Of a stretch of DNA of 48,266 bases, positions 6,097 through 37,905 are shown one piece after another; positions within the stretch are counted from its first letter, which is position 1, and the number at the start of each line of letters is the position of its first letter. Location: NCBI GenBank assembly GCA_040756435.1, contig JBFLZD010000027.1:1-48266 (forward strand). Reading direction: 5' to 3'. Under the pieces are notes generated by a model that was not told the origin of the DNA, searched no databases, and saw only the letters and a program-made list of their open reading frames with translations. This DNA is from Spirochaetota bacterium. Its GTDB lineage: Bacteria; Spirochaetota; UBA4802; UB4802. Made by a program: the position numbers and the translations under genes.

Positions 6097-6756
6097 ATGC
6101 ATTATATTGGTATAGATCCATCATGGAGTGGCAAAAATAATACAGCAGTTGTTGTGTGTGATAATACGTTACAGGTCATTGAAAATTGTTATACAAATGA
6201 TATTAAAAAATTAATTTTGGCGATAGTTCCTTTTAAAGATGCAATTATAGGTATTGATGCACCTCTTATTATTAGAAATCAAACAGGACATCGCAAACAT
6301 GAAAATGAATTTTTAAAAGTATTTTCCCGATTTGGGCTTGGACTGCATGCAGTAAATAAAAAACGGTATCCATATTTTTTTCCCGAAGTGTTATACCGGG
6401 AATTGAGTGCTCTGGGCTATAGTTTTAATAAGAACAACATTTATGAAGTATATCCTCATGCAACAATTATGATATGTTTTAATAATATGAAACTTTTACA
6501 GTATAAATCGAAATATGGTGTTACAGTGCGCAGAAAGAATATGGAAAAATTATATAATTATATAAAAGGCGTTATTACATGTGATGATTTATTTACAGGA
6601 ACTATCGCACAAGCTAAAGGTAAACAATTAAAAACATATGAAGATTATCTTGATGCGCTAGTGTGTGCATATACAATATACCACTGCATGCATAAAGGTT
6701 GTTATTCATTTGGAGATGCTGAAAATGGCATTTTGATAGTGCCTTTTCCTGAATGA
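6097..6756 (+). CDS. DUF429 family protein (predicted RNase H-like fold)
   Basis: A 219-residue protein. The N-terminal MHYIGIDPSWSG and IIGIDAPLI blocks are the acidic motifs of DUF429, a family predicted to share the RNase H fold. Later blocks include FFPEVLYRELSALGY, YEVYPHAT and the C-terminal YEDYLDALVCAYT, which carries another conserved acid. The family's activity is not established. The ATG at 6097 has an AGGA site and begins just after the ligase terminator, so it needs its own promoter. The gene contains two copies of the iterated word GCGATAGTT, one in each orientation (6219 and 6600), in two different reading frames. Confidence 0.75.
   Translation: MHYIGIDPSWSGKNNTAVVVCDNTLQVIENCYTNDIKKLILAIVPFKDAIIGIDAPLIIRNQTGHRKHENEFLKVFSRFGLGLHAVNKKRYPYFFPEVLYRELSALGYSFNKNNIYEVYPHATIMICFNNMKLLQYKSKYGVTVRRKNMEKLYNYIKGVITCDDLFTGTIAQAKGKQLKTYEDYLDALVCAYTIYHCMHKGCYSFGDAENGILIVPFPE
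6219..6228 (+). repeat. Iterated word GGCGATAGTT
   Basis: Exact 10-mer followed by CC, inside the DUF429 gene, where it is read as Ala-Ile-Val. Confidence 0.8.
6600..6608 (-). repeat. Iterated word GCGATAGTT, reverse orientation
   Basis: Exact 9-mer on the minus strand followed by CC, inside the DUF429 gene. It is read as part of Gly-Thr-Ile-Ala. Confidence 0.8.
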
Positions 6757-14561: not shown

Positions 14562-15593
14562 TTAAAATTGATAGAGGAAACGAACATCGCCGCTTAAGAA
14601 ATGGCGAATGTCATTAATACCATAGCGCATCATAACAAGCCTGTTTAAACCCAAACCAAACGCAAAGCCAGACCACTTATCCGGGTCAATATTCCCATAC
14701 TTGAGTACATTAGGATGAACCAGCCCACAGGGCAATAGCTCAACCCACCCGGAATATTTACATACACTACAACCCTTGCCACCACATATTAAACAGTGAA
14801 TATCTAACTCAAATCCAGGTTCAACAAAGGGGAAATATCCAGGGCGCAAGCGTATGGTTGTTTCTTTGTGGAAGATTTCTTTTAGCAATGTTTTCATAAA
14901 ATAGATAAGATGGGCCACAGAGATATCCTTATCCACCATCATGCCCTCAACCTGGTAAAATGTATTTTCATGTGAGGCATCAATACTTTCATAGCGGAAG
15001 ACCCTGCCAGGGCCAATAACTCTAAATGGTGGTTTAAGCCTCTCCATGCCTCTTATCTGAATTGCTGATGTATGTGTCCTGAGCAGATTGCCATCTTCAG
15101 TCCAGAATGTATCCTGCATATCGCGGGCAGGGTGGTATGGCGGGATATTGAGTGCTTCAAAGTTATAGTAATCAGTTTCTACCTCAGGGCCATCAAGAAT
15201 TTCAAAACCCATAGAGGTGAATATGTCCTCAATTTCATATTGTATTTGCGAAATAGGATGCAGGTGACCTCTTTCATACTGTTGTAATGTGCCGGGCAGT
15301 GTAAGCGTAACATCCAACCAGTCTTCCATGATAAGTTTGTTTATTTGCTGTTGGGTTAATACAGTTTTACGATTTTCCAGTGTGGATTCAATTTTTTCTT
15401 TCAGTTCGTTGGATAATTTGCCTATCTCAACACGCTCTTCCTGTGGCAATGTGCCAAGTGATCGCAAAACTTGCGTCAAATCACCTTTACGGCCCAACAC
15501 TTTAACACGTAACTGTTCCAATTGATCTATCGTTGTGGCTTTCTCAATTGCGGATATTGTTTGTTCATACAGGTCCTGAAGCTGCTTTTTCAT
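14562..15593 (-). CDS. pheS: Phenylalanine--tRNA ligase alpha subunit
   Basis: About 343 residues, the class II catalytic subunit. After an N-terminal coiled-coil (about 1-85) come HPARDMQDTFW, the motif 2 region GPGRVFRYESIDASHENTF, a cysteine-rich CLICGGKGCSVCKYSGW block, GCGL-like PCGLVHPNVL and motif 3 GFAFGLGLNRLVMMRYGI. I chose the third possible in-frame start, the ATG at 15593, because AGGTG sits 7 bases upstream of it; the earlier GTG and ATG overlap that site. The pair pheS-pheT is the usual bacterial order. No T-box-like or leader-peptide structure was recognised upstream, where an inverted pair of the iterated 10-mer is found instead. Confidence 0.96.
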   Translation of the reverse strand: MKKQLQDLYEQTISAIEKATTIDQLEQLRVKVLGRKGDLTQVLRSLGTLPQEERVEIGKLSNELKEKIESTLENRKTVLTQQQINKLIMEDWLDVTLTLPGTLQQYERGHLHPISQIQYEIEDIFTSMGFEILDGPEVETDYYNFEALNIPPYHPARDMQDTFWTEDGNLLRTHTSAIQIRGMERLKPPFRVIGPGRVFRYESIDASHENTFYQVEGMMVDKDISVAHLIYFMKTLLKEIFHKETTIRLRPGYFPFVEPGFELDIHCLICGGKGCSVCKYSGWVELLPCGLVHPNVLKYGNIDPDKWSGFAFGLGLNRLVMMRYGINDIRHFLSGDVRFLYQF

Positions 15594-15637
15594 ATACATC
15601 ACCTGAGTAATTACAAGTCTATACGTCCCTTACCAAG

Positions 15638-15675
15638 AACTATCGCCCAAAAAAAATATTATTTAGGCGATAGTT
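15638..15675. repeat. Inverted pair of the iterated 10-mer between PAP2 gene and pheS
   Basis: AACTATCGCC at 15638-15647 and GGCGATAGTT at 15666-15675 are perfect inverted copies, giving a 10-bp stem with an 18-base A/T loop. It lies 45 bases upstream of pheS in the gap after the PAP2 gene. Closely spaced inverted copies between genes are the arrangement taken by DNA uptake sequences in Neisseria and Haemophilus, where they can act as terminators. No U-tract follows the stem here on the minus strand; the loop itself contains eight T. Confidence 0.85.
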
Positions 15676-15800
15676 ACCGATAAATAATTTTTTAGATTTG
15701 TATTACAAAGGAACTGCTTGAAAAAAGTCAACAATATTACTATGAATTTTTATGTAAATTAACTATATGACAATCTCACAACTGATGCCGTGAGATGCAT

Positions 15801-16709
15801 TTAACCAGAACTATTACTCTTTTTTGAAAGGTATGGAATTTGCATAAATAGTGCAGGTGCGCCATACGATACCCACAACCCCATAAACCAGTATCGGATA
15901 AAGTCAAATACACTTGATGAGGGGAATACTATTTTAAGACCTTCTTTAATAACAAGGAGAATGATAATCCCTATGATAAATTTACAAAGCGCAGGTAGAA
16001 TTGTAAAAGTCATCTCTTCAGATTTATCTTTGTTGAGTATAAACCCTATTGCAAAACCGGATAGTACACCAAATGATTTGGCAATTTCATTGCCGGTTAA
16101 AGCTATGGCAATAATAAAAGGTACTATGACAAAAAGTGCAACTGCGGGGATTATACCGGTATTCCATAGTTTGTCGTAATGAGGGATTAACGCAATAACA
16201 CACAGAAAAATAACAGTCCCTAAAATTATGCCACCAGCCACATCACCTAAAAAATGTACACCTAAATACAGGCGAGAATACGAGATGGCAATAATCAAAA
16301 ATAGCGAAAATAGCGTAAAAACTCTATGCTTTAACACATAGGCCAATGTACCCCAGAATACTATTGCACTTTGAGCATGGCCGCTGGGAAATCCAGGGCT
16401 GTTAACAGGACAATACATGCGGTTCAGTTCTGCTATTGGTGGGGCAAGGTTTGCAGCATCTGGCCTGGGATTTATAAATAAAAATTTTGCAATATCGTTA
16501 ATTGCAGCAGATAGCAAAAAAGCAATGCCAACTATGGTTGCAACGCGTTTATTTACACACCAGAATAAAAATGGTATCACAAGAATATAAAACATCTCAT
16601 TGCCTAATTGTGTGAATGCAACCATAACAAAATCAAGCCATCTTCCGGCATAAAGATGTATCTGGTTTAATGTTTGTTCACTGAAAAGTAACTGGTTGGA
16701 AAAAAACAT
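15801..16709 (-). CDS. PAP2-family membrane phosphatase
   Basis: A 302-residue polytopic membrane protein with the three phosphatase motifs of the type 2 phosphatidic acid phosphatase superfamily: KFLFINPRP, PSGHAQS and SRLYLGVHFLGD. Members remove phosphate from lipid phosphates (undecaprenyl pyrophosphate, phosphatidate, lipid A) at the periplasmic face. Three or more hydrophobic segments follow the core, making the protein longer than a minimal PAP2. The exact substrate is not inferable. AAGGAG lies 6 bases before the ATG. It starts 29 bases after the ROK kinase gene, so the two probably share a transcript; 198 bases separate it from pheS. Confidence 0.88.
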   Translation of the reverse strand: MFFSNQLLFSEQTLNQIHLYAGRWLDFVMVAFTQLGNEMFYILVIPFLFWCVNKRVATIVGIAFLLSAAINDIAKFLFINPRPDAANLAPPIAELNRMYCPVNSPGFPSGHAQSAIVFWGTLAYVLKHRVFTLFSLFLIIAISYSRLYLGVHFLGDVAGGIILGTVIFLCVIALIPHYDKLWNTGIIPAVALFVIVPFIIAIALTGNEIAKSFGVLSGFAIGFILNKDKSEEMTFTILPALCKFIIGIIILLVIKEGLKIVFPSSSVFDFIRYWFMGLWVSYGAPALFMQIPYLSKKSNSSG

Positions 16710-21900: not shown

Positions 21901-22348
21901 AGAATTAACCAATTTAGTTGAAGAAGCGGTTATTGCAGAATTTGACAATATAAGTGCTCGTGGTGGTGTGCTGGGTGCAATGGAAACAATGTATCAGCGC
22001 AACAAAATACAGGAAGAATCCCTATATTATGAAAACAAAAAAATGACAGGAGAATTGCCTATCATTGGTGTTAATACATTCCTTTCTAAAAACGGAAGCC
22101 CAATTCAGGTCCCTGATGAAGTGGTACGGGCAACCCCGGAGGAAAAAGATACTCAGCTTGAATCGCTTAACACATTTCATGCGGTGTGGAATCAGGAATC
22201 AACAGTAGCCTTAGAAAAATTAAAAACTGCTGTTAGGCAGCATGAAAATGTGTTTGAAACATTAATGGATGTTTCAAAATATTGTTCATTAGGCCAGTTA
22301 ACCGGTGTCCTGTATAGTGTTGGTGGTATGTACAGGCGAAGTATGTAA
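18965..22348 (+). CDS. icmF: Fused isobutyryl-CoA mutase (IcmF)
   Basis: A 1127-residue adenosylcobalamin enzyme that joins three parts normally separate. Residues ~15-150 form the B12-binding domain with [10 protein letters not shown] (His28 as likely cobalt ligand). Residues ~195-440 form a MeaB/ArgK-type GTPase chaperone with P-loop [12 protein letters not shown], the switch-region [15 protein letters not shown] and the base motif VINKFDK. Residues ~550-1127 are the mutase barrel ([31 protein letters not shown]). This order, B12 domain-GTPase-mutase, defines IcmF. The Phe in FPFTAG, where methylmalonyl-CoA mutase has Tyr, supports isobutyryl/n-butyryl-CoA (or isovaleryl/pivalyl-CoA) isomerisation. 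GGGGG precedes the ATG. rarA follows after 10 bases. Confidence 0.93.
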
Positions 22349-22358
22349 GATATGGATA

Positions 22359-23660
22359 ATGAACTTATTTGATAAAAATACCTATATTCCCCTGGCAGAG
22401 CGAATGCGTCCCAAAACCATTGAAGAGTTTGTGGGGCAAAAGCATTTGCTTTCAAAAGGTAAACTACTATACTCTATCTTTGAACAAAAGAAAGCTCTTT
22501 CGCTCATCCTGTGGGGTGATCCTGGAACCGGTAAAACTACACTGGCACATCTTATTGCCAATGCCTGTAATATGGATTCTTATTTTATAAGCGCAATCTC
22601 GGCAGGGGTTGCTGATGTACGCAAGGTTATTGATAAGGGGAAAGCCAATAGAACGGCGGGTGTGCAAACACTCCTTTTTATTGATGAAATTCACCGCTTT
22701 AACAAGGCACAGCAGGATGCCGTTCTTGGCGCAGTTGAAAATGGTGACATTGTGCTCATTGGGGCAACAACGGAAAACCCGTCATTTAGCATCATAGCGC
22801 CGCTGTTGTCACGCACCCGCGTATTGCGGTTGCATCCGTTACAGGAGGATGATTTACGGGCGATAGTTACTGCTGCAATGACCAATGACCAGGAACTATC
22901 GCACAAAAACATAACGCTTGATGATGTTGCATTAGATACGCTGGTACAGCTTGCTATGGGTGATGCGCGAAGGGCGCTCAACATACTTGAGGCTGCAGCG
23001 TTTTTAAAAGGTGAGGGTAAGATAGACAACGATACCATTTTTGAAGCTTACAAAGAACAAAGTATTGCTTACGATAAAGCAGGCGACAAACATTATGATA
23101 CCATCTCAGCGTTTATAAAATCATTACGTGGTTCTGACCCCAACGCTGCAGTGTATTACCTGGCACGTATGCTTGTTGCGGGGGAGGACCCTGAGTTTAT
23201 TGCACGGCGTATGGTGATATTTGCATCGGAGGATGTGGGCAATGCCTATCCGCTGGCGCTTACCGTTGCAACCAGTGGAATGTTAGCAGTGAAAAATGTT
23301 GGTTTACCAGAGTGTGAAATTATACTTGCTCATATGGCAACATTTTTAGCTTCGTGTCCCAAAAGCAATGCCAGTTATATGGCATTGGTTAATGCCAAAG
23401 AAATTGCATCACGAGATTTACACGAAATTCCACTCTACCTGCGTAATGCTCCCACACAACTCATGAAGCAGCTGGGTTATGCAAAAGGCTATAAATATCC
23501 ACATGATTATCCCGGCCATTTTGTTGATGAAGAGTATCTTCCCAAAGAAATAAAAGATTTGATTTTTTACGCACCTTCTGAAGAAGGGAATGAAAAGAAT
23601 ATAAAAGAACGGCTTGTCAAACTTTGGCCAAAAAAATACAAAAAGGAGAAAGATGCATGA
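22359..23660 (+). CDS. rarA: Replication-associated recombination protein A (RarA/MgsA)
   Basis: A 433-residue AAA+ ATPase that acts at stalled replication forks. Sequence marks are LAERMRPKTIEEFVGQKHLL at the N-terminus, Walker A GDPGTGKTTLA, Walker B LFIDEIHRFNKAQQDA, sensor 1 GATTENPSF, the arginine finger region LLSRTRVLRL, and the C-terminal tetramerisation domain with DPNAAVYYLARML and YPHDYPGHFVDEEYLP. I place the start at the ATG at 22359; an upstream frame would overlap icmF. Its end overlaps pyrE by four bases (ATGA), so translation is coupled. Two inverted copies of the iterated word lie inside at 22859 and 22894. Confidence 0.95.
   Translation: MNLFDKNTYIPLAERMRPKTIEEFVGQKHLLSKGKLLYSIFEQKKALSLILWGDPGTGKTTLAHLIANACNMDSYFISAISAGVADVRKVIDKGKANRTAGVQTLLFIDEIHRFNKAQQDAVLGAVENGDIVLIGATTENPSFSIIAPLLSRTRVLRLHPLQEDDLRAIVTAAMTNDQELSHKNITLDDVALDTLVQLAMGDARRALNILEAAAFLKGEGKIDNDTIFEAYKEQSIAYDKAGDKHYDTISAFIKSLRGSDPNAAVYYLARMLVAGEDPEFIARRMVIFASEDVGNAYPLALTVATSGMLAVKNVGLPECEIILAHMATFLASCPKSNASYMALVNAKEIASRDLHEIPLYLRNAPTQLMKQLGYAKGYKYPHDYPGHFVDEEYLPKEIKDLIFYAPSEEGNEKNIKERLVKLWPKKYKKEKDA
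22859..22902. repeat. Inverted pair of the iterated word inside rarA
   Basis: GGCGATAGTT at 22859-22868 and AACTATCGC at 22894-22902 face each other across 25 bases. The first is read Ala-Ile-Val (ata gtt), the second as Glu-Leu-Ser-His, so the word is kept in two reading frames within one conserved gene. Confidence 0.8.
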
Positions 23661-25725: not shown

Positions 25726-26226
25726 TTATTTTCTAAATTCCACCGGCACAGACGATTTAATGTCAACTGTAAAAGTATAAAAATTATTTGTAAATGCTGA
25801 TATTTTAAGGCGATAGTTCCCTTTAATAAGCCGCTTCAGAGGATCAGTATCATCAGTGCAAACAAAGATATTGCTTTGAAAACGCCAGTTAATATCAAAG
25901 TTTTTTGCTATTTCAGCATAAACAGGTTGCAATGGCTTCTTTGGAAAATGCGATACATCAACAAGCGATTCAAGAATAAATCCACAGCGAACCCTTTTGC
26001 CATTTTTGTCTTGAGCAATAACTGTTATATCAATACAACGCGTGTCCTCAAGCAAATCAAAATAAATTTCATATGTTGGTGTTTTGTCAATGAGCTCTTT
26101 ACTTTTTGGAAGTGTTACTGTGTCTGAAATAAAAGAATAAACATGCGATTTTTGTTGTGTATTTGTAACAGTAGAGCATGATGTAATAAACAAAATTACA
26201 ATAATATAATAAAAAGATTTTTTCAT
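25726..26226 (-). CDS. Predicted lipoprotein
   Basis: About 166 residues. A hydrophobic leader (residues 5-16) ends in the lipobox ITSC with Cys17. The mature part has beta-strand patterns (YEIYFDLLEDTRCIDITVIA, VRCGFILESLVDV) and ends with NFYTFTVDIKSSVPVEFRK; no family is recognised. I prefer the ATG at 26226; the longer frame would start at a TTG. It appears to be the first gene of a two-gene unit with the TPR gene. The iterated word GGCGATAGTT occurs inside it. Confidence 0.6.
   Translation of the reverse strand: MKKSFYYIIVILFITSCSTVTNTQQKSHVYSFISDTVTLPKSKELIDKTPTYEIYFDLLEDTRCIDITVIAQDKNGKRVRCGFILESLVDVSHFPKKPLQPVYAEIAKNFDINWRFQSNIFVCTDDTDPLKRLIKGNYRLKISAFTNNFYTFTVDIKSSVPVEFRK
25809..25818 (+). 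repeat. Iterated word GGCGATAGTT
   Basis: Exact 10-mer followed by CCC, inside a minus-strand lipoprotein gene, where it is read Asn-Tyr-Arg. Confidence 0.8.
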
Positions 26227-26600
26227 GATAAATTTCTCACATTGCAATTAAAGTTTAGTTAATTGAGATACTATACACTGTTTATTGTAGTTTGCAATAG
26301 AAAAATATTGAATAAAATCAAGCTTTAGCCTCTTATAAATTTATTTTTACGATTAATTCAGCATCGTGCTACAATCAAGATTGCATAGCAAACTCGTAAT
26401 GACGGATTAACAAAGTCATCCTGAGCTTGTTTCAGGATCTATGATGGTGGGTATATAGATTATAAATCAAGTTTGGAATGGCAATGTGAAGGAAAGATTC
26501 CAGGTAAAGCATGGGAGGAAAATATTGGCGCGTGCCAGAATGTTTATTTTGGTGCATTGAACTGAAAGTAAAGAGGATGTTCATATGCTTAACAAAACAC

Positions 26601-32166: not shown

Positions 32167-33519
32167 GTGGAGTTAAAGCGCCAGTTAGGACTGTATACCG
32201 GAATACTTGTTATCATTGCCGATATGATAGGTACCGGTATTTTTATGACTACAGGGAATATTCTGGGCATTACGCAAAGTGCTTTTATTGTAATGCTTCT
32301 ATGGATTGTTGGTGGTGTTGTTGCATTGAGTGGCGCATTAAGTTACAGTGAGCTTGCCACAATGTGGCCTGATGCAGGTGGCGAGTATGTGTACCTGAAA
32401 AAAATATTTGGTAATCTTCCTGCATTTTTAACCGGATGGGTTTCACTGTTAGTTGGGTTTACCGCACCTGTTGCCACAAGTTCTATACTTCTTGTCCAGT
32501 ATCTCAATACATTTTTTGTTACTATCAACGCGCATTCCATTACTGTATATACTGGCAATGTCTTCTGGCAAAAAACTATAGCTTGCGGAATTATTGTATT
32601 GTTTGCTTTCACACATATAATTGGAGTAAGAAAAGGGAGTAATATCCAGAACATACTCACAGTGGTAAAAATTGGCATTGTGCTTGCGTTTATTGGTGCA
32701 GGTTTTTATATGCTCGATAGTTCCGGTATCAGCCGCCTGTATGCACAGTATGGCACAGTGGAAGTAAAATCCATACCATTTGTTGGATTATCCCTGCTTA
32801 TGGTGATGTTTGCATACACAGGATGGAATGGTGCTACGTATATTGCAGGAGAAATAACCAATCCCGAAAAGAATCTTCCTAAAATAATGTTTTGGGGAGT
32901 AACAATTACAACCATATTATACATTCTGCTGAATGTTGTCTTTTTGATGTCAACAGATGCTATATCCATTATGGGCAAAGATGAAATAGGTGCAATTGCA
33001 GCAAAAGCCCTGTTTGGTCCAGCAACAAGTAATTTTTTCAGCATAACTATCGCCCTGATATTGCTATCATCAGTTTCAGCACAGATGATGTTGGGACCAC
33101 GGGTATATTATGCAATGGCAAAAAATAAAATGATATTTCATTCACTGGCAAAAGTCAGTGAACGTTTTGGAACACCGGTACATGCAATAGTATTACAAAT
33201 GCTTCTGGCAATAATCTATGTGTATACAGGCAGTGCAATGACACTGGTAATCTATATGGGATTTGCGCTGAATATATTTCCGGTGCTGGCTGTTATAGGT
33301 CTGATTGTAGCACGCAAAAAATTTCCGGATTTGAACAGACCATATACCACACCTCTATATCCACTGGTGCCGTTAACGTACATTATTCTATCTATCATTA
33401 TGATGGTTGCAGCTTTGTGTTGCTGGACAATTACATCAGCATTTGCAATAGGGGTGTTACTGGTTGGTATTCCTGTGTATTACCTGTGGCAAAAAAAGAT
33501 ACAGGGAGCAGAACAATAA
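32167..33519 (+). CDS. APC-family amino acid permease
   Basis: A 450-residue inner-membrane transporter with about 12 hydrophobic segments. The first segment contains the unwound-helix motif IADMIGTGIFMTTG, and LSYSELATMWPDAGGEYVYL and FAYTGWNGATYIAGEITNPE are the other conserved APC/LAT-type blocks. It probably exchanges or takes up amino acids; specificity is not inferable. It begins with GTG, supported by AAGGAG 7 bases upstream, and lies directly after smc, so co-transcription is likely although the functions are unrelated. One iterated word occurs inside. Confidence 0.9.
   Translation: MELKRQLGLYTGILVIIADMIGTGIFMTTGNILGITQSAFIVMLLWIVGGVVALSGALSYSELATMWPDAGGEYVYLKKIFGNLPAFLTGWVSLLVGFTAPVATSSILLVQYLNTFFVTINAHSITVYTGNVFWQKTIACGIIVLFAFTHIIGVRKGSNIQNILTVVKIGIVLAFIGAGFYMLDSSGISRLYAQYGTVEVKSIPFVGLSLLMVMFAYTGWNGATYIAGEITNPEKNLPKIMFWGVTITTILYILLNVVFLMSTDAISIMGKDEIGAIAAKALFGPATSNFFSITIALILLSSVSAQMMLGPRVYYAMAKNKMIFHSLAKVSERFGTPVHAIVLQMLLAIIYVYTGSAMTLVIYMGFALNIFPVLAVIGLIVARKKFPDLNRPYTTPLYPLVPLTYIILSIIMMVAALCCWTITSAFAIGVLLVGIPVYYLWQKKIQGAEQ
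33045..33054 (-). repeat. Iterated word GGCGATAGTT, reverse orientation
   Basis: Exact 10-mer on the minus strand within the permease gene, read Thr-Ile-Ala in the coding direction. Confidence 0.8.
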
Positions 33520-33847: not shown

Positions 33848-34639
33848 ATGGGAAAGAATACATTAACCAAACAATATACCCTTACTCCGGCAGCTGGCAA
33901 GCGTTTAATTGCAAAAGCTATAGTACATATTCCTGAAATACAGGAAGCGCTGCAACAGAGAACAATTGTCATTGTATCAGGAACAACCAACGGCTATGTT
34001 GCTGAAGAAATACTTGCACATAGTAAACAGCTTGAGGGATTTTCAAGAGAGCGTTTTTTTAGAGGGATAACCCTTCCACCACGATATAAGGTTAGTCAAT
34101 CGGGGAGGCTGGAAGATGGTGGAACATTTACCGCTGATGTGGTAATAGAAAAAGGGAAATGGATAAAAGATAAATCGTTATTTGAAATAGTAAATGATTT
34201 ACAAGAAGGTGATATTATTTTTAAAGGAGCAAATGCCGTAAATCTTGACACAAAACAAGCTGCAGTGCTTATAGGCCATCCTCAGGCAGGCACCATAGGT
34301 ATTATTATGCAGGCTGTTGCAGGGAGAAGAGTATCTTTGTATATCCCTGTTGGTTTAGAAAAGCGCATATCAGCAAACATAAATGAGCTTGCTCAACTTA
34401 TAAATTCACCACAAACAAAAGGAATACGCTACTTCCCGGTAACTGGAAATATTATTACAGAAATTGAGGCAATACACATTCTTACACAAGCTCATGCTGT
34501 ACTTTTTGCAGCAGGAGGAGTAAGTGGTGCCGAAGGATGTGTGTGGTTAGCTGTTACCGGTACAGAAGAGCAGATACAAAAGACTGATGGAATAATAGAG
34601 TCAGTGAGGTATGAGGATAATTTTTTGCTTTTTAAATAA
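33848..34639 (+). CDS. Conserved protein of unknown function
   Basis: A 263-residue soluble protein with no signal peptide. Notable blocks are LTPAAGKRLIAKAI, VIVSGTTNGYVAEEIL, RFFRGITLPP, GDIIFKGANAVNLD, AAVLIGHPQAGTIG, RRVSLYIPVGLEKRI and LFAAGGVSGAEGCVWLAVTG. The many Gly-rich turns after beta strands suggest a Rossmann-like or other alpha/beta fold. I have the impression of a conserved family but cannot name it. The ATG at 33848 has no visible ribosome site. The 3' end overlaps the convergent membrane-protein gene by 39 bases. Confidence 0.65.
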   Translation: MGKNTLTKQYTLTPAAGKRLIAKAIVHIPEIQEALQQRTIVIVSGTTNGYVAEEILAHSKQLEGFSRERFFRGITLPPRYKVSQSGRLEDGGTFTADVVIEKGKWIKDKSLFEIVNDLQEGDIIFKGANAVNLDTKQAAVLIGHPQAGTIGIIMQAVAGRRVSLYIPVGLEKRISANINELAQLINSPQTKGIRYFPVTGNIITEIEAIHILTQAHAVLFAAGGVSGAEGCVWLAVTGTEEQIQKTDGIIESVRYEDNFLLFK

Positions 34640-36787
34640 AATCAAGCAAAATCCCAATACTATTAATATCCCTAACGAGTAAATCCCAAAAAACGGAAGT
34701 AATACAAATGGAGTCATTAATGCACCACACAATGCACCAGTATGGTCGGCAGCATCAAGGGTTGAAGACAAAAGCTGTATATCATCAGTTTGTTTGTTAA
34801 GTAATAATGGTATAAATGAACCGGTGGTTGCTGCAATAAACATAATGGAAATATAAAATAATATTGGGTTATTGTATATAGAAAAACAAAACAACATCAC
34901 TAAGCCAGCAATTAATACCACAATCCGTGTAATAAAAAAGTCTTTTGGTACAAATGTGGTTACACTGCCTATAGCTAATCCCAGCATAAACAATGCATTA
35001 CACAGAGCAATTTTATAATATAAAACACCATATACATTTTGATAGGTGATAAGGGCAATGATCATTGCTGCCATACTGATAAATCCGGCTATACATATTA
35101 TGCTGCCCATAAATATGTGGTGGATTCCCCTTGACTTAAAATACCATAAACTTATAATTACAATGAGCACTAACAAAAGTGTCATGAATAAAGGATTGGT
35201 AATAATCCGTTCCGCCAGTGAATTGGATTGTTTTAATGAATTAGCTAAATATTCAAAATATCCTTTTGGCAAATGATCGCTGTTTATGATATGTTCAGAT
35301 TGTAATTGTGTAGAAAGATATTGTTGCTGTGATTCTTGAAAATACATTTTGAATTCATAAGGATTAAAGCCCGGAACAAGACGTTGTATGGTTTTTGCGA
35401 TAGGTGTCTTTGAAAAATTTTTAATATAATGGGACAGATAGTTACTGACATCAATTTTACGGTTATCATTAAATCCAATACAATAGATGGTATCACCTGC
35501 TGAAATCAGTGATGAAGGAAATACTTGCCTGAAGCTATTTATTACTGATGCTATATATCGCCTGAGAGAAGGATTCATAATGTTGGCAAAACCTTCAACC
35601 TGAATAATGCACACACCATTGATGGATAGATGTAGTTTGCAGTCGTTGAAAAATTCTTTTGTATATAACCTGTTATGTAAAATGCTATCGGGGGGTGCTG
35701 GCAGGATGATGATGGTACTATATTTTTTATGTGTTGTTTTCAGGTAGCTTCGTGTGTCATCATAATACACATTTATTAATTGTGTGGGAAAGTCGGGATA
35801 AATTGAAATAAATTTTTGCTGCACAATATCATACATCACAGGGTCAACAGTAACATAATCAATAGAAGCACCTGCATACGCAAAAACATAATGAAGAAAG
35901 GCAGTATCACCTGAAATGAGTATGTCTGTATCTTTTAGCATAGAGCTGGTGGAAAATAATGCGTGAAGTATAGGTCGCACCTGGTAATCGTCTGGGAATT
36001 GTGCATACAGGTTGTTGTTCCCATACAGCGCAATGGTATCACCCAAACGTGCAATAAACATCATCTGGTAGGGTGTGCGTCTGTAGTCAAGTAGTGTACC
36101 TGGATGATTGGCAGCAAATGACAGTGTGAGCAGTTTCTTTTCAACGTAGGGTGAGTGAGCTATTCCAAAGGCAGCGATTACTATAGCAGTAACTATCGCC
36201 AAACGCTTAATTCTTTGTTGTATAACAGTAAAAGAAATAATGCTGGAAACAATGAAAAGAATGAGTGCGGTACCCAGTGGGTCAATTTTTTGAATGATTA
36301 AAAATGTGAATGTTATTCCACCAGTAAATGCGCCAAGTGATTCAAGTAAAAATACTACACTTCCAGGATTGATTATTTTTACGTTTGAGCCTGCAGTAAC
36401 TAAAATAGGGAAAATATAACCAACAATGAAACATTGTGGGAAAAGGCACGCCAATGCAATTAAGAGTTCCACTTCAAGTGTATAAAACCCACCAAACGTG
36501 TGATATACAATAGGTATGCAATATAGCAGTATAAGCGAAATGCAAACTATGATAGGATGGAGTAAAATGTTTAAAGCAATACTATTGAATTGATGTGCTC
36601 TTATTTTTTTGCTCATTGCTGCACCAGCGGTGATACCAGCAAACCACAACACCATAATAATGCCAATAGATAGTTCATTTCCCTTAAAAAGCATAAGTAA
36701 TTCGCGAATCATAATAGCCTGTGCAATGCTAGCTGAAATGCCAATAAAGAACGAAGATACATACAAAAATATACGGTTGCGTTTCAT
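34601..36787 (-). CDS. Polytopic membrane protein with a spermidine-synthase-like domain
   Basis: About 728 residues in three parts. Roughly seven membrane segments (residues 5-215) come first, beginning FFIGISASIAQAIMIRELL. A soluble Rossmann-like domain follows (about 230-460) resembling aminopropyltransferases: RTPYQMMFIARLGDTIALY, GNNNLYAQFPDDYQVRPILH, then IDYVTVDPVMYDIVQQKF and DDTRSYLKTT. About five more membrane segments end the protein. Where active spermidine synthases have a GGGDG-type nucleotide loop, this protein has ILISGDTAFLHYVF, so catalysis is doubtful. The start at 36787 gives an ATGA overlap with the upstream radical SAM gene, making it the third gene of the AmmeMemoRadiSam operon. 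One iterated word lies inside. Confidence 0.75.
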   Translation of the reverse strand: MKRNRIFLYVSSFFIGISASIAQAIMIRELLMLFKGNELSIGIIMVLWFAGITAGAAMSKKIRAHQFNSIALNILLHPIIVCISLILLYCIPIVYHTFGGFYTLEVELLIALACLFPQCFIVGYIFPILVTAGSNVKIINPGSVVFLLESLGAFTGGITFTFLIIQKIDPLGTALILFIVSSIISFTVIQQRIKRLAIVTAIVIAAFGIAHSPYVEKKLLTLSFAANHPGTLLDYRRTPYQMMFIARLGDTIALYGNNNLYAQFPDDYQVRPILHALFSTSSMLKDTDILISGDTAFLHYVFAYAGASIDYVTVDPVMYDIVQQKFISIYPDFPTQLINVYYDDTRSYLKTTHKKYSTIIILPAPPDSILHNRLYTKEFFNDCKLHLSINGVCIIQVEGFANIMNPSLRRYIASVINSFRQVFPSSLISAGDTIYCIGFNDNRKIDVSNYLSHYIKNFSKTPIAKTIQRLVPGFNPYEFKMYFQESQQQYLSTQLQSEHIINSDHLPKGYFEYLANSLKQSNSLAERIITNPLFMTLLLVLIVIISLWYFKSRGIHHIFMGSIICIAGFISMAAMIIALITYQNVYGVLYYKIALCNALFMLGLAIGSVTTFVPKDFFITRIVVLIAGLVMLFCFSIYNNPILFYISIMFIAATTGSFIPLLLNKQTDDIQLLSSTLDAADHTGALCGALMTPFVLLPFFGIYSLGILIVLGFCLILFKKQKIILIPH
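36191..36200 (-). repeat. Iterated word GGCGATAGTT, reverse orientation
   Basis: Exact 10-mer on the minus strand followed by AC, inside the spermidine-synthase-like membrane protein gene, read Ala-Ile-Val within a predicted membrane segment. Confidence 0.8.
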
Positions 36788-37905
36788 AGTGTCCATATAC
36801 CAGGTATAGCAGTATTGCAGTATGGGCATTTTCCTGCTTTAAGTTTGTTTGTTGTTGTATAAAAGCCACTTCGCTCTATAACAGGCTTGCCGCAGTTGTG
36901 GCAATAGGTATTGTTGGTGCTATGTCCTGGAACGTTGCCAATATATACATATTTAAGTCCTTCGGCAAGCGCTATGTCCCTGCAGCGTTCAAGTGTTGAA
37001 ACAGGTGTAGGTGGAATATTTTTTAATTTGTAAATTGGATAAAATCGTGTGAAGTGCAGGGGTGTTGTGCTGCCACAATGGGTTTTAATAAAGTGGGCCA
37101 TTGCTTTGATATCTTCAGGGTTGTCGTTCAACGTGGGGATAACAAGATTTACCAATTCCAGCCATATATTTTTCTTTTTTGCAAGTTCAATGCTGGCAAG
37201 CACTGGCGATAAATTTCCACCACAAATTTCAGAATAAAATTTCTGTGAATATGACTTGAAATCGATCTTGATGGCGTTCAGTAAGGGATATAACATTTCG
37301 CTGGCTTGTTTGTTGAGATAACCATTGGAGATGATGACACAGGCAATATCATATTTTTTTGCTATCTGTACTGTATCATAAATGTACTCATATTGAATTG
37401 ACGGTTCATTGTATGTGAAGGCAACAACTGGCGTTTTGTGTTTTTTAGCCTGGTTTATAAGATTGTTGGGTGTTATATATTGGCTGTCAAGTTCTTCGGG
37501 TTGTGATTGTGAAAGCTGCCAGTTTTGGCAAAATTTGCAGCTGAAATTGCAACCAGCAGTGGCAACTGACAATGCGTCATTGCCCGGCAAAAAATGATAC
37601 AGTGGCTTTTTTTCAATGGGGTCAATGTGATAGGCAGCAATACGTCCATACACCAGGCTGTAGAGTTTACCATCAATACATTGCCGAGCTTTGCAAATAC
37701 CTCTAGTGCCGCTTGTTAGCATACATTGATTGGGGCACAGGTTACATTGCACGGTTTGTTTATCAATTTTTTTCCAGTGTAAAGCCGTTCGATAGTTACT
37801 GGCATAAACATCTTCAGGTAAAAATGGAACAACTGAGCCAACAACAAACGCTTGTGCTGAATACATACAGCTTTGCAAAAATTGTTTACGGGTATAAAAT
37901 CTCAT
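36784..37905 (-). CDS. amrS: AmmeMemoRadiSam system radical SAM enzyme with signal-like N-terminus
   Basis: A 373-residue radical SAM protein. The cluster motif is CNFSCKFC (Cys119, 123, 126) in the family context ATAGCNFSCKFCQNWQLSQ. A cysteine group precedes it (CNLCPNQC, Cys54/57/61, and Cys71) and another is near the end (YCHNCG and KCPYCN). These are the marks of the AmrS family found with AMMECR1 and Memo proteins; its substrate is unknown. Residues 1-35 do not belong to the core: YTRKQFLQ followed by a hydrophobic stretch and ending VYA-S looks like a Tat signal with Arg-Lys replacing Arg-Arg. That would place a folded iron-sulphur enzyme outside the cytoplasm. It lies 59 bases after the Memo-AMMECR1 fusion gene and overlaps the next gene by ATGA. 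Confidence 0.88.
   Translation of the reverse strand: MRFYTRKQFLQSCMYSAQAFVVGSVVPFLPEDVYASNYRTALHWKKIDKQTVQCNLCPNQCMLTSGTRGICKARQCIDGKLYSLVYGRIAAYHIDPIEKKPLYHFLPGNDALSVATAGCNFSCKFCQNWQLSQSQPEELDSQYITPNNLINQAKKHKTPVVAFTYNEPSIQYEYIYDTVQIAKKYDIACVIISNGYLNKQASEMLYPLLNAIKIDFKSYSQKFYSEICGGNLSPVLASIELAKKKNIWLELVNLVIPTLNDNPEDIKAMAHFIKTHCGSTTPLHFTRFYPIYKLKNIPPTPVSTLERCRDIALAEGLKYVYIGNVPGHSTNNTYCHNCGKPVIERSGFYTTTNKLKAGKCPYCNTAIPGIWTL

Follow-up and report, generated by a model that had tools for sequence, protein, structure and literature searches.

In the window, by which we mean the whole 48,266-nucleotide stretch analysed (contig C27 of the source genome, G000, which is 3.61 Mb and 99.65% complete), two copies of the word AACTATCGCC face each other upstream of pheS. 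The initial annotation had described this inverted pair as lying between a PAP2 gene and pheS, and the coordinates bear this out: both arms are perfect and stand 18 bases apart. The spacer, given there as 18 A/T bases, does have that length, but 17 of the 18 bases are A/T and the first is C. The minus strand carries the PAP2 gene as well as pheS, so the pair is found 125 bp after the PAP2 stop codon and ~35-45 bp ahead of the pheS start, the latter figure varying with the start codon chosen. The proteins closest to the pheS product were those of A05DMB-I-13 (Spirochaetota; 96% identity), R1_Bin_METABAT__127 ('uncultured bacterium'; 93%) and UBA2205 (Spirochaetia; 88%). Seven copies of AACTATCGCC are present in the window, where shuffled sequence would give 0.06, and Rfam gave no match within the window. 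At 22859-22903, in the rarA-like gene, one perfect word and one one-mismatch word ending at 22903 form a divergent pair.

Table 1. Features of the pheS locus and single copies of the word in the window.
Feature	Position	Strand	Basis
Word copy 1 (AACTATCGCC), pheS-proximal arm of the pair	15638..15647	+	Sequence match
Word copy 2 (reverse complement), promoter-proximal arm of the pair	15666..15675	-	Sequence match
Spacer, 18 bp, A/T-rich, built from the 3' flanks of both facing words	15648..15665	.	Length and sequence diverge between species
pheS, phenylalanine-tRNA ligase alpha subunit	14562..15602	-	ORF and family match
PAP2-superfamily protein gene, ends 125 bp before the pair	15801..16709	-	ORF and family match
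TTGACT, -35-like hexamer, putative pheS promoter	15726..15731	-	Kept in 5/5 genus genomes
TGTAAT, -10-like hexamer (CGTAAT in G004), 18-bp spacer to -35	15702..15707	-	Conservation
Single word copy within ORF 6097-6756	6219..6228	-	
Single word copy within rarA-like ORF 22305-23660 (named from its translation)	22859..22868	-	
Single word copy within ORF 25726-26247	25809..25818	-	
Single word copy within ORF 32167-33519	33045..33054	+	
Single word copy within ORF 34601-36829	36191..36200	+	

The putative pheS leader and its hairpin

We compared the locus with that in four further genomes of the same genus (G001-G004); judged by identity and coordinates, A05DMB-I-13 appears to correspond to G001, R1_Bin_METABAT__127 to G003 and UBA2205 to G002. 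The hexamers TTGACT-18-TGTAAT, the second being CGTAAT in G004, are found upstream of pheS in all five genus genomes. The promoter-proximal arm begins 25-26 nt after the -10-like hexamer in 5/5 genomes (26 nt in G000), and the distance from the pheS-proximal arm to the start codon ranges from ~37 to 154. From this arrangement, we infer that the pair sits in the 5' leader of pheS. A generic promoter scan, which requires the second base of the -10 element to be A, did not list the hexamers, so the putative promoter rests on their conservation. In G003, a duplication with a 76-bp period and an inverted repeat (CTCATGGCGCAAGCCATGAG) was observed just upstream of the pheS promoter.

Folding predicted a stable hairpin on both strands, with -24.8 kcal/mol (z = -6.9) in the pheS sense. 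A terminator scan made no call at the pair; it covers loops of 3-8 bases only, so that the 18-base loop, as drawn, would be missed. There is no T-run directly past the second arm on either strand, and on the plus strand six T start ~12 bases beyond the second arm.

Abundance of the word within and outside the genus

The word was counted in 59 genomes, five from the genus and 54 others, with the reversed word as control. The G000 genome holds 483 copies (245 forward and 238 reverse) compared to 6 (3+3) of the control, and the five genus genomes hold 483, 469, 463, 397 and 234. Each of the 54 non-genus genomes has at most 11, except G021 (21, control 2) and G046 (20, control 20). G021 belongs to another family of the order. 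In nine of its contigs picked for hits, 12/16 copies of AACTATCGC are preceded by GAT, and a 16-bp near-palindrome, GGCGATA-NN-TATCGCC, occurs at five sites in 143 kb of the hit-picked contigs; this near-palindrome was found 0 times in the other sampled G021 contigs and is absent from the G000 sample. Those other contigs (128,570 bases, of which 5,441 are N) contain AACTATCGC once, the same as its control. The GAT context and the near-palindrome suggest that the G021 excess is mostly, not wholly, due to another repeat. A weak excess of GGRYGATA was also seen in G021 contigs. In G005, from the same family as the genus, a 94-kb sample (four of eight contigs selected for hits to the word or to ComEC) contained no word with a comparable excess. 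By these counts the word is specific to the genus and spread across the genome. Searches of the literature on uptake sequences in spirochaetes, in metagenome-assembled genomes and on the letters of the word, with most subscription journals outside their scope, revealed no report of the word among the matches listed.

An extended motif and a species dialect

Fine analysis was performed on samples of four genomes, G000 (847 kb), G001 (291 kb), G002 (307 kb) and G004 (400 kb), containing 12 to 2,500 N bases, with ORFs taken as longest-ORF calls (80 aa) rather than from a trained gene finder. The most over-represented 9-mer in the G000 sample was AACTATCGC, with 209 copies versus 12 expected under a fourth-order Markov model. 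A weight matrix grown from this 9-mer detected 573 sites in the 847 kb and 73 in the control, the same sequence read backwards. It revealed a long motif centred on the word, T-rich..CAG[G/T]A[A/G]CTATCGCC..A-rich, with a consensus that is T-rich at -11 to -7, continues as CAG[G/T]A[A/G]CTATCGC[C] and is A-rich to about +19. At the centre, CTATC is fixed at 96-100%. The matrix includes its flanks in the score, and these were therefore rechecked on 245 unselected words, where the A/T fraction was 0.71-0.78 at +11 to +19 compared to ~0.6-0.65 further out.

The top 9-mer in the G004 sample was instead GAGCTATCG (77 copies in 400 kb, 2.4 expected). In whole genomes, the dialect word GAGCTATCGC occurs 542 times in G004 versus 104-220 times in the other four genus members, and none of the 54 non-genus genomes has more than 10. 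The switch affects the G-type word: the classes GAA, GAG and TAA number 90, 30 and 86 in G000 and 9, 58 and 29 in G004. When 30 G000 words were aligned to G004, 11 were identical, 7 A/G-switched, 11 otherwise different and 1 gapped. The A/G switch accounts for 7/11 single-mismatch G004 partners (p = 5e-5 if all positions are equally likely, the true value being less extreme since transitions are commoner than equal chance). Two other dispersed words were observed in G000: GTCATTGCGAG, for which 447 kb held 28 copies of GTCATTGCGA compared to ~1 expected, and GGGTCAGAGC, with 36 copies of CTCTGACCC in 847 kb and 1.3 expected, the latter also present in G004 and partly in G002.

Genomic placement and conservation of single words

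The G000 sample contains 115 words, of which 89 lie inside ORFs, 25 are intergenic and 1 overlaps an ORF end. A protein-motif artefact was rejected, as words inside ORFs fill all five stop-free frames. In the four genomes pooled (1.85 Mb, 313 words), 243 words overlap ORFs at a density of 0.149/kb, and the intergenic densities are 0.37/kb in divergent gaps (26 words), 0.31/kb in tandem gaps (32) and 0.30/kb in convergent gaps (6). Enrichment between genes is thus about twofold, with convergent-gene gaps no denser in words than divergent ones and no 3'-end preference. Relative to local GC skew in the 847-kb G000 sample, the orientations of A[AG]CTATCGC divide 127:119 (p = 0.66) and those of AACTATCGC 114:95 (p = 0.21), revealing no replication-strand bias, and word spacing is compatible with random placement. 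A Chi-like oriented or evenly spaced site was rejected on these grounds.

Single G000 words were kept in G001 at 13/15 places compared to 36.9% for same-composition control 9-mers, in G002 at 6/15 ungapped places compared to 6.3%, and in G004 at 11/29 ungapped places, plus 7 dialect switches, compared to 11.9%. Word and flank identities were 0.970/0.878, 0.836/0.740 and 0.859/0.801 in G001, G002 and G004, from small samples of 15, 16 and 30 words. The DNA uptake sequence (DUS) is described as more conserved than its flanks, and the flanks as more divergent than the genome average (PMC2397512). Here, the flanks diverged weakly more than the genome average in G001 (p = 0.045), with no such effect in G002 and G004. 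Gapped partners of G000 words were few (0/15 in G001, 1/16 in G002 and 1/30 in G004; 0/17, 2/17 and 0/26 when counted from the partner's side). Wordless partners thus differ mainly by substitutions, which speaks against insertions, with the proviso that BLAST alignments favour ungapped partners and the insertion rate may be underestimated. The initial annotation had read the word as a propagating element, and that reading is strengthened by the genus-wide counts, the motif, the dialect and the substitution-type differences: the word behaves as if it propagates.

Inverted pairs across the genome

We searched the whole G000 genome for facing words with a gap of 0-30 bp. Three perfect convergent pairs were found (on contigs C27, C43 and C51), compared to none for the reversed control, together with one perfect pair in the opposite order. 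Random placement of the 245 forward and 238 reverse words gives 0.50 pairs expected and P(>=3) = 0.014, a calculation that leaves out the intergenic enrichment. The convergent pairs take up 6/483 words (1.2%). Relative to chance, the excess of the pair is modest and that of the word huge. With one mismatch allowed and a gap of 3-30, the four samples (1.85 Mb) gave 11 convergent near-pairs versus 1.9 expected, a count in which orthologs appear more than once and 6/11 were scored inside ORFs, including the icd pair of G000, whose ORF started too early. The same scan gave 4 divergent near-pairs versus 1.9 expected and 1 tandem versus ~3.7 expected.

The C43 pair lies between a divergent EF-G-like gene and a DUF6937/6938 gene, and the C51 pair between a divergent thioredoxin-reductase-like gene and a gene of the isocitrate/isopropylmalate-dehydrogenase family, here called icd; the EF-G-like and thioredoxin-reductase-like genes were named from reading their translations. 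All three perfect pairs are 5' of genes, two of them between divergent genes and none between converging genes. Since ~90% of intergenic bases (174/194 kb) are 5' of at least one gene, the former is unsurprising, and since convergent gaps make up 10% of intergenic bases and there are three pairs, the latter is weak evidence alone. The initial annotation had tied its case to the existence of further intergenic pairs, of which C43 and C51 provide two, and had proposed checking whether close pairs fall after stop codons; only the pheS pair follows one, that of the PAP2 gene, and all three lie upstream of genes.

Both arms are kept at 14/15 places in the genus (pheS 5/5, icd 5/5 and C43 4/5 genomes), the exception being C43 in G002, where one arm only was seen. 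The loops range from 12 to 19 bases across the five genomes and differ in sequence. To count arm changes, we used the ten core positions of the 14 valid pairs (140 cells), leaving out C43 in G002 as spurious. Differences from the commonest pair were found in 11/140 cells, every one of them one-sided; position 7 accounts for one of them and positions 0, 1 and 9 for the other ten, and single words vary at all of these positions. CTATC is unchanged in all 14 valid pairs. No compensatory change was found in the ten core positions of these pairs, and two of the changes would permit G-U on the gene-sense strand. In G004, one arm each of the pheS and icd pairs took the GAG dialect, by which the pheS pair loses base pairing and the icd pair gains a wobble. 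Exact A[AG]CTATCGC is kept in 6/6 arms in G001, 5/6 in G004 and 4/6 in G002 (15/18), compared to 14/15, 18/30 and 7/16 single words (39/61), a difference that is not distinguishable (p = 0.16). Collectively, these comparisons suggest that the pairs are old, inherited within the genus, and that they behave as two words rather than as a selected hairpin.

Search for uptake machinery in the genus

PilT-family matches over the cut-off were found in 0/5 genus genomes, with G002 lacking any match. The best match to the PilT model in G000 is a GspE encoded in a type II secretion operon, and the type II secretion ATPase scores 636 against the PilB model, whose cut-off is 676. In this operon GspD, GspE and GspG exceed the NCBIfam cut-offs and GspC- and GspF-like proteins are below them. 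A search of the G000 genome for prepilin N-termini gave four, all in the type II secretion operon, which runs off the contig end. A type IV pilus was thus not found in the genus genomes as searched (PilT in five genomes, prepilins in G000), although a divergent machine could be missed. The ComEC core domain was detected in 28/29 genomes searched, including 24/24 outside the genus that lack or nearly lack the word, and the match of the proteins to the full-length model is confined to its first part and scores under its cut-off. It was not found in G004, a 95% complete genome with abundant words, where an assembly gap is possible. DprA is present in 5/5 genus genomes and is not specific. That no standard uptake pilus was seen weighs most heavily against classing the word as a DUS.

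Discussion

DNA uptake tags were described for two proteobacterial families, the Neisseriaceae and the Pasteurellaceae, in a 2016 review (PMC5031613). The DUS of the Neisseriaceae is, like the word reported here, a non-palindromic word of 10-12 bp with hundreds to thousands of copies, many of them genic, with dialects in related species and with inverted pairs (PMC3630211). Tagged DNA is taken up by way of type IV pili and minor-pilin receptors (PMC12616744), and an estimate for Haemophilus and Neisseria puts ~10% of uptake sequences in inverted pairs (PMC1939737, citing unpublished data). The word differs from the DUS in that there is no evident sequence similarity, the host genus is in Spirochaetota, a type IV pilus was not found, and there are only three perfect pairs, none of them at converging gene ends. 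The uptake signal sequence (USS) of the Pasteurellaceae carries A/T-rich flanks, and the word resembles it in its fixed core with such flanks, whereas here the A/T tracts are weak and on both sides, and pilus machinery was not found. USS copies are also mostly in ORFs (65% in H. influenzae) and show no orientation bias (PMC1939737), but their core is AAGTGCGGT (PMC5031613) compared to AACTATCGC here. HIP1 of cyanobacteria is likewise a short word, very over-represented and genome-wide, but is palindromic (PMC1939737), unlike the spirochaete word. Chi and similar sites share the short over-represented word; here there is no strand bias, the motif is longer, with flanks, and there is a species dialect. 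The word thus has in common with DUS and USS its copy number, both orientations, genic and intergenic excess, dialects and conservation over its surroundings, and lacks frequent inverted-pair terminators and a detected type IV pilus machine with a minor-pilin receptor. By analogy with these systems, the pair may be described as two inherited copies of a genus watermark that resembles a DUS.

We consider it probable, by a modest measure, that the word serves as a dispersed recognition sequence, specific to the genus and functioning in the manner of a DNA uptake sequence, and that the pheS pair is two inherited copies of it and no terminator. A DNA-binding step would prefer the T-rich..CAG[G/T]A[A/G]CTATCGC[C]..A-rich motif and, if coupled to recombination with the DNA of relatives, would let mutations toward the motif spread by molecular drive. 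Copies would then pile up whatever the orientation or reading frame, and would do so somewhat more between genes. Two of them would have come to face each other upstream of pheS before the genus diversified, and the pair would since have been inherited in the putative pheS leader with each arm kept as a word. The genome counts, the motif, the dialect, the conservation and substitution-type differences, the lack of strand bias and the position of the pairs were observed directly; that the reader of the word would be a DNA-uptake step, and the protein responsible, are matters of inference. Convergent pairs are in some excess, which is not predicted by drive alone and counts against this account.

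That excess of near-pairs would fit a proposal in which the three pairs have taken on a separate function, as stem-loops in the 5' leaders or as operators, for pheS, icd and the DUF6937/6938 gene, for example in mRNA stabilisation or as a roadblock. The position of all three 5' of genes and their retention in the genus, the constant distance of the pheS pair from the conserved -10-like hexamer and the stable pheS-sense fold are in line with such a role. However, the 5' position is what intergenic DNA offers anyway, the arms are not measurably better kept than single words, and the changes in the arms are one-sided, where single words vary, and never compensatory, and we regard this proposal as unlikely. 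The initial annotation had taken the pheS pair for an intrinsic terminator after the PAP2 gene, a reading that could draw on the stable hairpin on both strands, on the PAP2 stop codon 125 bp upstream and on Neisseria, where dialects of the DUS are described and inverted pairs terminate transcription (PMC3630211, PMC2397512). It is not supported here: the scan gave no call, within its limit on loop length, the U-tract that should directly follow the stem is missing on both strands, the C43 and C51 pairs lie between divergent genes, and the density of single words is not raised between converging genes. Furthermore, the pair sits behind the putative pheS promoter, so that as a terminator it would cut off pheS. 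We therefore hold a terminator to be very improbable.

Two proposals concern the word as a whole. It could be the binding site of a chromosomal protein, such as a nucleoid organiser or a recombination or segregation factor, with hundreds of sites kept by selection; the failure to find an uptake pilus in the genus genomes and the resemblance of the fixed CTATC centre with A/T flanks to a protein site favour this. Chi/KOPS-type sites have an orientation bias, however, which the word lacks, a coordinated dialect switch at many sites is hard to obtain by site-by-site selection, and most sampled copies (89/115) are in coding DNA, making such a site rather unlikely in our view. The copies could also be what is left of a transposed repeat of the REP/REPIN or MITE-like kind, since REPINs are inverted pairs with a short loop and the short-loop pairs resemble them. 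This is scarcely credible, as the flanks fit the motif only loosely, copies inside genes occupy all open frames, and wordless partners differ mainly by substitutions, none of which fits copies made by inserting a longer conserved unit.

Returning to the uptake-like reading, a bolder and rather doubtful version is that the word is a third, independently evolved DNA self-recognition word, in a genus of uncultured Spirochaetota, that operates without a type IV pilus, with its dialects already diverging. It would then be read by a different machine at the cell surface, of which the type II secretion pseudopilus is one example, or through a route that needs no pilus. A word of similar genome statistics and dialects in so distant a phylum, where the genomes show no recognisable type IV pilus, would imply either a renewed origin of the tag system or some other drive behind words of this kind. 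Having two dialects, the five genus genomes make the tag idea testable by comparison.
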